Positions 87-52,371 of a stretch of DNA of 55,523 bases are shown here, piece after piece. The stretch's first letter is position 1. Each line of letters begins with the position of its first letter. Origin of the DNA: Chromatiales bacterium (GTDB lineage: Bacteria; Pseudomonadota; Gammaproteobacteria; JAGRGH01); NCBI GenBank assembly GCA_020445605.1, contig JAGRGH010000007.1, forward strand, positions 1 through 55,523, given 5' to 3'. A model generated the notes under the pieces. The model was not told the origin of the DNA, ran no database searches, and saw only the letters and a program-made list of their open reading frames with translations. A program made the translations under genes and the position numbers.

Positions 87-243
87 TCAATTCTCATTTC
101 AACGGCCTGTTAGCGCGAGACAGGGACGTCTCGCCCGAAAATCAAACATGCAAGTGTTTGATTTTCGTGAGCAACCGAAAACCACGCTTTTCGGTTGCGA
201 CGTTGAAAAGGCCATGGATGGGCCTTTTTCAACAAACTGCTAG
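87..243 (+). repeat. Dispersed hairpin repeat family A, copy 1 (left end truncated)
   Basis: It shares with five other copies the order: ATTTCAAC arm; 7-bp stem GCGAGAC/GTCTCGC (115-134) with loop AGGGAC; a CGAAAATC hairpin; an AACCGAAAA/TTTTCGGTT hairpin; and GTTGAAAAGGCC with loop ATGGATG closing on GGCCTTTTTCAAC. The right edge is CTAG at 240-243, which supplies the TAG stop of rnfH on the opposite strand. The left arm is lost at the IS junction. Confidence 0.9.
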
Positions 244-2979: not shown

Positions 2980-3150
2980 CTGAGCAGGCTGTTGAGATTC
3001 TCATTTCAACAGTCTGCTCTAGCGAGACAGAGACGTCTCGCCCGAAAATCGAACACACAAGGGTTTGATTTTCGTGAGCCACCGAAAACCGCGCTTTTCG
3101 GTTGCGATGTTGAAAAGGCCATGGACGAGCCTTTTCCAACAACCTATTAG
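2980..3150 (+). repeat. Dispersed hairpin repeat family A, copy 2
   Basis: A full-length copy downstream of smpB in the sense direction. It has all five hairpins. The second loop reads AGAGAC instead of AGGGAC, so the GGA core is lost here, whereas the last hairpin keeps ATGGA. The edges are degenerate relatives of CTAG (CTGAG, TTAG). The rest of the 300-bp gap 2905-3204 shows only a GC-rich inverted repeat (GCGCGG/CCGCGC) just after smpB. Confidence 0.88.
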
Positions 3151-10744: not shown

Positions 10745-10897
10745 CTAAAACTCTGATCAATTCAGAGTTTCCCGTGGCACAGGGACGTGCCACCATTTTC
10801 AATGTGCCTAAGCCATTGAAAATATAAGAAAACGAAAAACCGCGCTTTTTCGGGCTCAAAGCTCTGTTAATCCAGGATGGATTAATCAGAGCTTCCC
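10745..10897 (+). repeat. Dispersed hairpin repeat family B, copy 1
   Basis: It begins AAAACTCTGATCAATTCAGAG and ends ATTAATCAGAGCTTCCCC. Inside are a 7-bp stem GTGGCAC/GTGCCAC with loop AGGGAC (10774-10793), a CATTTTCAAT/ATTGAAAAT hairpin, an AACGAAAAA...TTTTTCG hairpin, and a terminal stem GTTAATCC/GGATTAAT with loop AGGAT. The hairpin order parallels family A although the stem sequences differ. Confidence 0.85.
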
Positions 10898-11050
10898 CAA
10901 GCTCTGATGCCGGCAAGCCAAGCTGCCGCAGGCATGAAAACAAAAGGGGTGGTCACCTCGCATTCTCCAAATCGCGCAGGCCCGCAGCCATGGAAAACGG
11001 TGGCACATCCCTGTGCCGCTGGAAACGCCTGACTGGATCAGGGTTTCGAT
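10898..11050 (-). repeat. Dispersed hairpin repeat family B, copy 2 (inverted, degraded)
   Basis: Abuts copy 1 head-to-head. Read on the minus strand it keeps the hairpin GGCAC/GTGCC with loop AGGGAT, so the ten-base core reads ACAGGGATGT, plus TTTTCCA and AAGCTCTGAT ends. The middle has diverged. It lies immediately downstream of the DUF302 gene in the sense direction. Together the two copies fill the 436-bp gap 10627-11062. Confidence 0.65.
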
Positions 11051-11931: not shown

Positions 11932-12100
11932 TCTAACAGGCGATTGAAATTCTCTTTTCAACGGCCTGTTAGCGCGAGACTGGGACGTCTCGCCCGAAAA
12001 TCGAACATGCAAGTGTTTAATTTTTTTGAGCAACCGAAAACAGCGCTTTTCGGTTGCGACGTTGAAAAGGCCATGGATGGGCCTTTTTCAACAACCTGCC
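11932..12100 (+). repeat. Dispersed hairpin repeat family A, copy 3
   Basis: A full-length copy between the DUF2970 gene and the RpfG-like gene, in the sense direction of the latter. The second hairpin keeps the GCGAGAC/GTCTCGC stem with loop TGGGAC, and the last hairpin keeps ATGGATG. The edges are TAACAGG and CAACCTGCC, that is, degenerate CTAG ends. The remaining 288 bp before the next gene show no gene or clear promoter. Confidence 0.88.
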
Positions 12101-14782: not shown

Positions 14783-14957
14783 GGGAAGCTCTGATCAATC
14801 CATCCCGAATTGCCAGAGCGGCACGTCCATGTGTCGCGGGAAGCTCTGAATTTTGCAGCGTCTCCTTGGCCGATGAAGATGCAGGCAATGCAAAAACCCC
14901 CGATATTTCAGCCGCCGAGCCCTGACGACCGTTGAAGGATTGATCTGAGCTTCCATA
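14783..14957 (-). repeat. Dispersed repeat family B, copy 3 (inverted, composite)
   Basis: The end near 14783 carries GGGAAGCTCTGATCAATCC on the plus strand, and the end near 14957 carries the inverted counterpart (GATCTGAGCTTCC). Read on the minus strand it contains ACATGGACGTGCC, a loop-ATGGAC hairpin with weak stem pairing, and CGGGATGGATTG. The middle (14857-14930) is unlike other copies. It lies between the REC-REC-Hpt gene and rpfF, antisense to both, and accounts for most of the 446-bp gap. Confidence 0.75.
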
Positions 14958-30576: not shown

Positions 30577-30746
30577 CTAGCAGGTTGTTGAAAAAGGCCT
30601 CTCCATGGCCTTTTCAACGTCGCAACCGAAAAGCGTGGTTTTCGGTTGCTCACGAAAATCAAACACTTGCATGTTCGATTTTCGGGCGAGACGTCCCTGT
30701 CTCGCGCTATCAGACTGTTGAAATGAGAATTTCAACAGCCTGCTAG
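30577..30746 (-). repeat. Dispersed hairpin repeat family A, copy 4 (CTAG on both sides)
   Basis: The best-bounded copy: CTAG at 30577-30580 and 30743-30746 enclose a 162-bp core whose ends read CAGGTTGTTGAAAA and CAACAGCCTG. Read on the minus strand all five hairpins are present, including GCGAGAC/GTCTCGC with loop AGGGAC and GGCC with loop ATGGAGA. It is in the sense direction of the erpA transcript and upstream of its terminator. Confidence 0.93.
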
Positions 30747-31299: not shown

Positions 31300-32130
31300 A
31301 TGCCCGCCGAATCCCCCCGCGTGCCGCGCCGTCCCGTCGTTCTGGTGTTCGCCGGTCATGACCCGGGCGGCGGCGCGGGAATTCAGGCCGACATCGAGGC
31401 CATCGGCGCCATGGGCGCCCACGCCGCGACGGTGGTGACCGCGCTGACCGTGCAGGACACGGTCGGGGTCACGGCCATCGGCGCCGTGTCGTCCGAATCG
31501 ATTCGCGCGCAGGCTGGCGCCATCCTGGCCGACTGCCCGGTTGCCGCGATCAAGACAGGCCTGCTGCCGAGCGCCGAAATCGTGGAAACCGTCGCCGGAC
31601 TGGTGCGGGGTTGCGGAGTCCCGCTCGTGGTCGACCCGGTACTGCGCTCGGGCGCCGGCGACGCGCTGACCGATCCGGCCGTCGTTCGCGCACTCATCGA
31701 ACGGCTGCTGCCGCTCGCGACCATCTCAACCCCCAACGCGGCCGAGGCCTGTGCGCTGGCCGGTCTGCCGGCCGATCGGGCCGCAACAGCGGCGTCGGAC
31801 CTCAGCCGGACCGCCGGTTGCAGCGTGCTGCTGACCGGCGGGGACGTGATCGAATCCCCGGACGAGGTCGTCAACCGCCTGTTCGCAGAAGGCAGAGAGC
31901 GCCGCCAATGGCGCTGGCCACGCCTGCCCGGCGCCTATCACGGCTCCGGCTGCACCCTAGCCGCGGCGCTCGCGGCGCGGCTGGCGGCCGGGGATTCACT
32001 GGACGCAGCCTGCGAACTCGCACAGTCATTCACCGACCGGGCGCTAGGCGCGGCCTTTCGCAGCGGACGCGGTCAGCTCATACCGGGTCGCCGCGGCGGC
32101 GGTCCGGCAACGCCGTCCGGTTCCAGCTAG
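31300..32130 (+). CDS. thiD: Hydroxymethylpyrimidine/phosphomethylpyrimidine kinase ThiD
   Basis: 276 residues, ribokinase-like fold. It phosphorylates HMP and HMP-P in thiamine synthesis. Typical blocks: VFAGHDPGGGAGIQADIEAI at the start, AIKTGLL, VVDPVLRSGAG, TPNAAEA, and the anion-hole/catalytic region GAYHGSGCTLAAALAA. I see no thiamine riboswitch upstream. The TAG stop is the TAG of CTAG (32127-32130) at the left edge of repeat B copy 4. Confidence 0.93.
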   Translation: MPAESPRVPRRPVVLVFAGHDPGGGAGIQADIEAIGAMGAHAATVVTALTVQDTVGVTAIGAVSSESIRAQAGAILADCPVAAIKTGLLPSAEIVETVAGLVRGCGVPLVVDPVLRSGAGDALTDPAVVRALIERLLPLATISTPNAAEACALAGLPADRAATAASDLSRTAGCSVLLTGGDVIESPDEVVNRLFAEGRERRQWRWPRLPGAYHGSGCTLAAALAARLAAGDSLDAACELAQSFTDRALGAAFRSGRGQLIPGRRGGGPATPSGSS

Positions 32131-32284
32131 GGAAACTCTGAATTGTCAGAGTTTCCCGCAGCACATGGACGCGCTGCCATTTTCAACGGGTGTAACACGT
32201 TGAAAATGAAAGAAAGCGAAAAATCGCATTTTTTCGTTTTCTGCGCTCTGGCAATCTGGGATGGATTGATCAGAGCTTCCCTAG
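32127..32284 (+). repeat. Dispersed hairpin repeat family B, copy 4 (CTAG on both sides)
   Basis: A 150-bp core flanked by CTAG on each side, consistent with target duplication. The ends are GGAAACTCTGAATTGTCAG and GGATTGATCAGAGCTTCC. Inside are GCAGC/GCTGC with loop ATGGAC, TTTTCAAC/GTTGAAAA, GAAAGCGAAAAA/TTTTTTCGTTTTC and CAATC/GGATTG with loop TGGGAT. The left CTAG ends thiD and the right CTAG ends the convergent DUF3095 gene. Confidence 0.93.
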
Positions 32285-35711: not shown

Positions 35712-35880
35712 TTAACAGACTGTTGAAATTCTCTTTTCAGCAGCCTGATATCGCGCGACAGGGACGTCTCGCCCGAAAATCGAACATGCAAGGCTCTGAA
35801 TATCGAGAGCAACCGAAAACCGGGTTTTCGGTTGCGATGTTGAAAAGGCCATGCACAGGTCTTTTTCAACGACCTGTCAA
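35712..35880 (+). repeat. Dispersed hairpin repeat family A, copy 5
   Basis: Full-length copy downstream of the DMT permease gene in the sense direction. The AGGGAC loop is kept on a slightly changed stem (GCGCGAC/GTCTCGC). The third hairpin has diverged (CGAAAATC...GAATATCGAG), and the last loop reads ATGCACAG, so the ATGGA core is lost here. The edges are TTAACAG and GACCTGTCAA. Confidence 0.88.
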
Positions 35881-40198: not shown

Positions 40199-40367
40199 CT
40201 AGCAGGCTGTTGAAACTCTTATTTCAACAGCCTGATATCGCGAGACAGGGACGTCTCGCCCGAAAATCGAACACCCAGGTGTTTGACTTTCGTGAGCCAC
40301 CGAAAACCGCGCTTTTCGGTTGCGATGTTGAAAAGGCCATGGATGGGCCTTTTCTACAACCTGTTAG
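40199..40367 (+). repeat. Dispersed hairpin repeat family A, copy 6
   Basis: Full-length. Left edge CTAG (40199-40202), right edge TTAG (40364-40367), which contains the dxs stop codon (TAA on the minus strand). All five hairpins are kept, including loop AGGGAC on CGAGAC/GTCTCG and loop ATGGATG. It is antisense to the flanking adk and dxs genes. Confidence 0.92.
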
Positions 40368-51954: not shown

Positions 51955-52120
51955 TGATTGCATTGATCCGGCATGCCACCGGCACGGCGGGAACCGCGGC
52001 TCAGGGATGTGCCGCCGCGATCCAGCAGGCGCGCGCCGCGGATCACAGAGAAAAGAAAAAACCGCGCCGTTTCGTCTTTGTTGCGCTGGCAATCCTTCGA
52101 CGGATTGATCCGTGCATCCG
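51955..52120 (+). repeat. Dispersed hairpin repeat family B, copy 6 (diverged)
   Basis: Upstream of dnaX. It keeps GCGGCTC/GTGCCGC with loop AGGGAT, so the core reads TCAGGGATGT, plus AGAAAAGAAAAAACC...GTTTCGTCTTT and CTGGCAATCC...GGATTGATCC. The ends are degraded. It is antisense to dnaX and lies next to the SRP RNA gene. Confidence 0.7.
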
Positions 52121-52133
52121 GAATCGATGGCGG

Positions 52134-52238
52134 CGGCCGCGCCAGCCACACCCCGGCGCCCGAGTCCACTGCTGCGGCTGCTCCCTTCCGGGCCTGACCG
52201 GGTTCACAGCTTTTCGTCGCGGGGGGACCGACGCGGCC
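52134..52238 (-). ncRNA. ffs: Signal recognition particle RNA (4.5S, small bacterial type)
   Basis: About 105 nt on the minus strand. The conserved hairpin GGTCAGGCCCGGAAGGGAGC followed by AGCCGCAGCAGTGGACTCGGG is the Ffh-binding domain IV, with the GGAAGGGAGC loop typical of bacteria. Outer pairing GGCCGCG...CGCGGCC closes the molecule and was used for the ends. It guides co-translational targeting with Ffh. Confidence 0.9.
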
Positions 52239-52281
52239 ACCATGGACGCGGTGCGCGCAACACGCTTGCGCGATGATCGAA

Positions 52282-52371
52282 TGGCGGAGAGAGAGGGATT
52301 CGAACCCTCGATAGGCTTGCGCCTATACTGACTTTCCAGGCCAGCCCGTTCGACCGCTCCGGCATCTCTCC
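52282..52371 (-). tRNA. tRNA-Ser (anticodon GGA)
   Basis: 90 nt with the encoded CCA. Acceptor GGAGAGA/TCTCTCC, discriminator G, anticodon loop CTGGAAA (GGA, reads UCC/UCU), the long class II variable arm TATAGGCGCAAGCCTAT, and T-loop GGTTCGAATCC. Confidence 0.97.

Follow-up and report, generated by a model that had tools for sequence, protein, structure and literature searches.

Two families of hairpin-rich repeats, A and B, recur in a stretch of 55,523 nucleotides from a Chromatiales bacterium (contig JAGRGH010000007.1), and the pair of inverted B copies at 10745-11050 raises the question of what such repeats are and what keeps a short loop constant on stems that differ between copies. This whole stretch is referred to as the window. 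The features located in it are given below; R1 denotes the covariance model introduced further on.

10748-10896, plus strand: family B element (left terminal inverted repeat hairpin, hairpins 1-3, right terminal inverted repeat hairpin), R1 core at 10774-10896
10774-10793, plus strand: hairpin 1, GTGGCAC-AGGGAC-GTGCCAC, with the loop at 10781-10786 fitting C-ANGGAN-G
10861-10896, plus strand: hairpin 4 and right terminal repeat, loop AGGAT at 10874-10878
10899-11047, minus strand: degraded B copy, inverted and back to back with the 10748-10896 copy
14784-14864 (about), minus strand: short B form of about 82 bp, terminal hairpins and ATGGAC hairpin only
32127-32130: left target-site duplication CTAG
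32131-32280, plus strand: complete B element, R1 core at 32158-32280
32281-32284: right target-site duplication CTAG
51996-52119, plus strand: strongly degraded B copy (R1 match, E 5e-5)
89-239, plus strand: family A copy, hairpin 1 GCGAGAC-AGGGAC-GTCTCGC
2997-3145, plus strand: family A copy
11948-12098, plus strand: family A copy
30581-30731, minus strand: family A copy
35727-35876, plus strand: family A copy, diverged
40214-40363, plus strand: family A copy

The B copy at about 10748-10896 contains its parts in the order given by the original prediction, as borne out by sequence, profile match and folding, and the hairpin 1 loops AGGGAY/ATGGAC are present in families A and B alike. The full copy predicted at 32127-32284 is the element 32131-32280 between its CTAG duplications, with an ATGGAC hairpin whose stem has one mispaired base pair. 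An inverted partner had been placed at 10898-11050; a B copy does lie there, but it is degraded (71 bits with the B profile, 29.5 bits with R1). Its hairpin 1, GCGGCAC-AGGGAT-GTGCCAC, occupies 11000-11019 on the minus strand, where ACAGGGATGT, the sequence claimed as a CsrA core, was found. The interval 14783-14957, taken for a normal full copy, holds only the short form. At 51955-52120 the assignment to family B stands as a strongly degraded match, and the GCGGCTC/GTGCCGC stem cited from this copy is not compensated because it contains a T-T mismatch. For ordinary copies the R1 E-values, 1e-20 to about 1e-6, are beyond chance. No promoter-like site was found at the named copy (10748-10896), and the one terminator-like call there is no more than in shuffles. 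The strongly degraded copy at 51996-52119 directly adjoins an SRP RNA (52137-52233, minus strand) and a tRNA gene (52285-52371, minus strand), the whole group spanning 51996-52371.

The mobile nature of the repeats is absent from the original prediction. Families A and B are short non-coding mobile elements of the MITE type: they are about 150 bp long and multicopy, and full copies end in terminal inverted repeats and are flanked by exact 4-bp duplications, many of the form NTAN (e.g. CTAG, TTAA). Profile searches of the fetched stretches of this genome (G000; 3.36 Mb, 63 contigs) gave 89 B matches, 52 of them full length, and 47 A matches, 45 of them full length; R1 gave 131 matches at E up to 0.01, reverse-strand echoes included. 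The 4-bp flanks were equal in 48 of 84 elements of other genomes (shuffled partners 10.1), in 13 of 27 own B copies (shuffled 2.1) and in 7 of 19 own A copies (shuffled 3.0), ten B rows and three A rows being left out of this and the own-copy mutation analysis. In short forms of about 82 bp only both terminal hairpins and hairpin 1 are left, hairpins 2 and 3 being absent, and the ANGGAN loop was kept in six of the seven that were folded.

Composite and broken copies were also seen. The element at L249:3404-3565 is a chimera with a family A type left end and a family B type right end, and in L051 and L032 A-type and B-type elements or ends directly adjoin, as if inserted into or beside each other. 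Break points recur in the terminal hairpins (L142, L154, L166, L172, L326, L328, L334); many copies begin within the left one at about the same spot, and others end within the right one.

Insertion sequences of the IS5 type have a 4-bp YTAR target duplication and ends starting with GGAA. The elements described here resemble them in both features, and IS5-type insertion sequences are presumably the likely movers; the difference is that an autonomous partner was not found here. When the end pattern was followed in 12 genomes, no transposase was recognized by eye in the 12 fetched stretches, which yielded only further short or truncated elements. Whole elements had no match in the plasmid and phage collections. 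Weak plasmid matches to the element ends had been considered as a lead to the mover and were dropped, no transposase being seen near them. REP/REPIN elements are associated with a RAYT tyrosine transposase and a GTAG-type hairpin foot; the terminal repeats and exact 4-bp duplications seen here point away from this group.

A hairpin 1 pattern scan of the contigs of 84,980 species yielded 115 stretches, a set biased in hairpin 1 by the search pattern itself. The titles listed among them are gammaproteobacterial MAGs, and the carriers listed include Sedimenticola, Halothiobacillus, Chromatiales, Thiotrichales, Porticoccaceae and Salinisphaerales. R1 was built from 15 elements of other genomes taken from this set. 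Since R1 contains no element of the present genome and nevertheless finds both families, A and B are one superfamily, and the suggestion that both be treated as one model was sound. R1 matched 69 of 369 Gammaproteobacteria genomes (E up to 0.001) and 44 of 398 genomes in a phylum-wide draw (E up to 1e-5), 42 of the 44 lying outside the Gammaproteobacteria, mostly in another class; its calibration was short and the E-values are thus rough. Copy numbers are lower bounds because only the best candidates per genome were scored. From the phylum draw a set of 22 elements was formed, one per chosen genome, 21 of them from other classes. The collection of 89 matches leaves out the own-genome L282, and the loop and end comparisons leave out the lowest 13 of the 89 (reverse-strand echoes, weak or partial hits). 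The sources for one analysis step were hand-chosen (n=99).

Reading from the left, an element consists of a terminal repeat that forms one hairpin with its own inverted copy, followed by hairpins 1, 2, 3 and 4, which make up the folded core. The loop of hairpin 1 has six bases, the tip of hairpin 3 reads AAA-Y-CRC-R-UUUU, and hairpin 4 contains the right terminal repeat. Stem covariation had been claimed from the copies in the window; stem changes there are few, but covariation is real once the copies of other genomes are added. The outcome that would have refuted the prediction, an alignment of the copies lacking covariation, did not arise. Among the 15 training sequences, 97.7% of cells are paired and 52 cells show two-sided changes (13.0 shuffled). 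In the alignment of 115 matches, 45 of 47 pairs have two-sided changes, with 1039 such cells against 251.9 +/- 20.6 in shuffles (0/500 as high) and 109-173 in slid controls. The 22 phylum-draw elements give 41 of 47 pairs and 240 cells (69.3 shuffled), with changes on both sides in all seven pairs of hairpin 1. Because the latter two alignments were fitted to R1 and lean towards the model, 73 elements of other genomes were also aligned with MAFFT without structure, and 7140 column pairs were compared with a tree-based null. Ten pairs passed E 0.05, all inside the proposed stems of hairpins 2, 3 and 4 and 95-100% canonical; the pairs of hairpin 1 did not reach the E 0.05 threshold in this test of 73 elements. 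The four-hairpin RNA core is under strong covariation and its structure is selected.

Left out of the early alignments were the own copies that had diverged most and any elements whose ends were broken or that contained inserts or duplications. In a first MAFFT alignment of all families hairpins 2-3 were misregistered and the fold was poor, and some hairpins were assigned wrongly by an anchor parser; the covariance model took the place of both. An intrinsic terminator was set aside as an explanation, there being no T-run after hairpin 3.

Several unrelated kinds of ends, four or more, flank the core. One kind reads GGAARCTCTGA; family A has CAGGCTGTTGAAA; L277 and L322, the only two such cases, have GAGGSTGTCGCAAA and what look like 5-bp duplications; and L351, L352 and L355 have ends resembling ATGATGACTTCG. 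Ends have been exchanged while the RNA core was kept. This bears on a first alternative, that the hairpins act as DNA, single-stranded or cruciform, and are read by a transposase or a host DNA-binding protein that recognizes the GGA loops, with CsrA uninvolved. Such a role would suit the position of both terminal repeats inside hairpins and the lack of an orientation preference relative to genes, and structured DNA is discussed for mobile and repeat motifs in the available text of PMC11109978. However, a core kept under at least four end kinds means that the choice of transposase lies with the ends and the loop persists regardless, and short forms without hairpins 2-3 as well as truncated copies exist. 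Nor does DNA structure predict that G-U events exceed A-C events. Among independent events the ratio in other genomes is 81:33 (p 8e-6), or 54:29 without G-U-rich pairs (p 0.008); in own copies it is 52:33, or 35:29 without those pairs (not significant). The excess favours the ANGGAN strand as the RNA, although G-U pairs are tolerated by the model. Together with the agreement of free and fixed loop positions with a CsrA site, set out next, this makes the DNA reading unlikely.

Published CsrA/RsmE sites are hairpins whose hexaloop reads ANGGAN with variable N (available text of PMC7652899 and PMC3791407), and the consensus (A/U)CANGGANG(U/A) is cited in the available text of PMC6849547. In hairpin 1 the stem is rewritten around a retained C-ANGGAN-G, so that the predicted pattern of fixed loops on changing stems is confirmed across genomes. 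In 52 elements of the Gammaproteobacteria draw, obtained with the full model and not with the loop pattern, the parsimony changes along the loop were A0 N16 G0 G1 A0 N19 and those of the closing pair C1/G0, with a column mean of 5.2. Of the 72 distinct Gammaproteobacteria elements 69 have ANGGAN, as do 18 of the 22 from the phylum draw; together with the C-G closing pair of the Csr/Rsm hexaloop the counts are 68/72 and 14/22. The loop of hairpin 4 keeps A(N)GGA(N): GGA occurs in 71/72 and 20/22, A(N)GGA in 63/72 and 20/22, which provides at least two GGA sites per RNA. As judged from sequence, the only loop positions that vary are the two that published RsmE/CsrA sites leave free. The position-by-position fit to the hexaloop agrees with the protein-binding reading of the original prediction and makes CsrA the predicted partner.

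A structured RNA for another partner, either an unknown protein or the ribosome through a Shine-Dalgarno-like loop, with an accidental resemblance to CsrA sites, could account for the tip of hairpin 3 (e.g. 10830-10852 in the window). This tip is strongly conserved, nearly invariant with about one change at most A, C and T positions, and its conservation lies outside what CsrA binding or any CsrA rule explains. Yet the free positions of hairpin 1 are exactly those of the CsrA consensus, and the common loops ACGGAT and ATGGAT are not tolerated by a Shine-Dalgarno reading, which was set aside. Another partner is regarded as improbable, more so than the DNA reading.

Least probable of all, and very doubtful, is a neutral MITE in which palindromes are maintained by template-switch correction of imperfect hairpins, without selected function. 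The own copies would agree with it. They decay across all columns, the loop of hairpin 1 like the rest of the element, and within these copies the fixed loop positions carry no fewer mutations than random columns do (rank 0.40 for A, 0.12 for B). Nor do the own copies prefer the sense of flanking genes (48 sense, 63 antisense of 111 callable, p 0.18); they lie on the 3' side of a gene in 71 cases and on the 5' side in 40 (p 0.004), with gene strand calls that are rough (101 of 122 training segments called correctly). A regulatory role site by site was set aside in view of the missing orientation bias. Hairpin correction, however, leaves loop positions with 0-1 changes beside positions with 16-19 changes unexplained, as it does the conservation across classes and the presence of the same core under different ends.

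If CsrA is the partner, carriers may be expected to possess it. One csrA was found in the present genome. In the phylum draw, csrA was present in 42 of 44 element-bearing genomes and in 178 of 354 others (p 7e-10), genomes that are not independent because most belong to one family; counted by genera, the figures are 19/19 with the element and 80/194 others (p 2e-7). Within the Gammaproteobacteria, where the counts compare the listing of element matches with that of csrA matches, enrichment was not significant, either among all genomes (61/69 element genomes, 252/300 others, p 0.46) or among those of good quality (58/61 and 222/253, p 0.11). Three good-quality element genomes of this class had no csrA detected.

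The explanation that we consider probable is a superfamily of MITE-like elements, distributed phylum-wide, whose cargo is a selected RNA module that would bind CsrA. Some copies may be transcribed by read-through or from chance promoters, and each RNA would present two CsrA/RsmA sites in the manner of a Csr/Rsm sponge and bind CsrA. With dozens to more than 100 copies per genome, a dispersed pool of CsrA sites would result, which could titrate CsrA or tether it to neighboring transcripts. Selection could operate through effects of CsrA on the element's own transcript or on its cost. Since the own copies show no orientation preference and the loop decays along with the other parts of the element, the most likely target of selection is the mobile lineage and not the individual insertion.

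Sponge RNAs of the Csr/Rsm systems (CsrB, RsmY, RsmZ, RsmV) likewise have hairpins with A(N)GGA(N) loops and several sites per RNA; they come from a few dedicated genes, whereas the elements are scattered as mobile copies, each unit with two sites. In Rfam 15 no family reaches its cut-off over any element of the window or of ten other carriers. Closest among MITEs are QMITE1 and QMITE2 of Coxiella burnetii, described in the available text of PMC5896051 and of the review PMC10969869: like the present elements they are short, non-coding and multicopy, with terminal inverted repeats and direct repeats. Some QMITE copies give sRNAs. In that text QMITE1 is reported without orthologues elsewhere, whereas the RNA core described here spans many families and at least two classes; the present elements further differ from the QMITEs in their covarying core, several end kinds and two CsrA-type loops. 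CsrA did not come up in a term search of the two papers, and searches of the open-licence PMC literature yielded no account of CsrA sites within any bacterial repeat or MITE. The available text of PMC11109978 lists 250 mobile or repeat motif candidates, one of which could be this element.

Bacterial MITEs are usually regarded as inert debris. The same RNA, with rewritten stems and swapped ends in many bacteria, hints at mobile elements tapping a master regulator. Tentatively, and with slightly less than even confidence, the elements are proposed to be transposable RNA sponges: phylum-wide mobile elements with interchangeable ends around one RNA whose two hairpins would capture CsrA, a selfish element that would manipulate the post-transcriptional network of its host or supply parts to it, tandem amplification leading to CsrB-like arrays. 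If true, mobile DNA would be linked to a global regulator and new Csr/Rsm sponge RNAs could arise from it; a host carrying about 100 copies would be predicted to hold a large hidden pool of CsrA sites.

In single elements the loops of hairpins 1 and 4 are about 86 nt apart, which is beyond the bridging range of 10-63 nt between CsrA sites given in the available text of PMC7652899 unless folding brings the loops together. In one genome with tandem arrays, about 27 nt separate the last loop of a unit from the first loop of its successor, inside that range. These arrays (L293, L294, L295; genome G018) lack the left end and repeat the core with a period of about 124 bases; as many as three complete units follow one another, each with two GGA loops. 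In a permissive Rfam search a tandem array matched RsmV below threshold (17.6 bits against a cut-off of 100, E 0.26). In another genome, a 3.2-Mb single contig (G124; L259, L335, L336), the ends match 118 times forward and 122 times in reverse, pointing to about 120 copies; some of the scores are identical, perhaps indicating recent spread.
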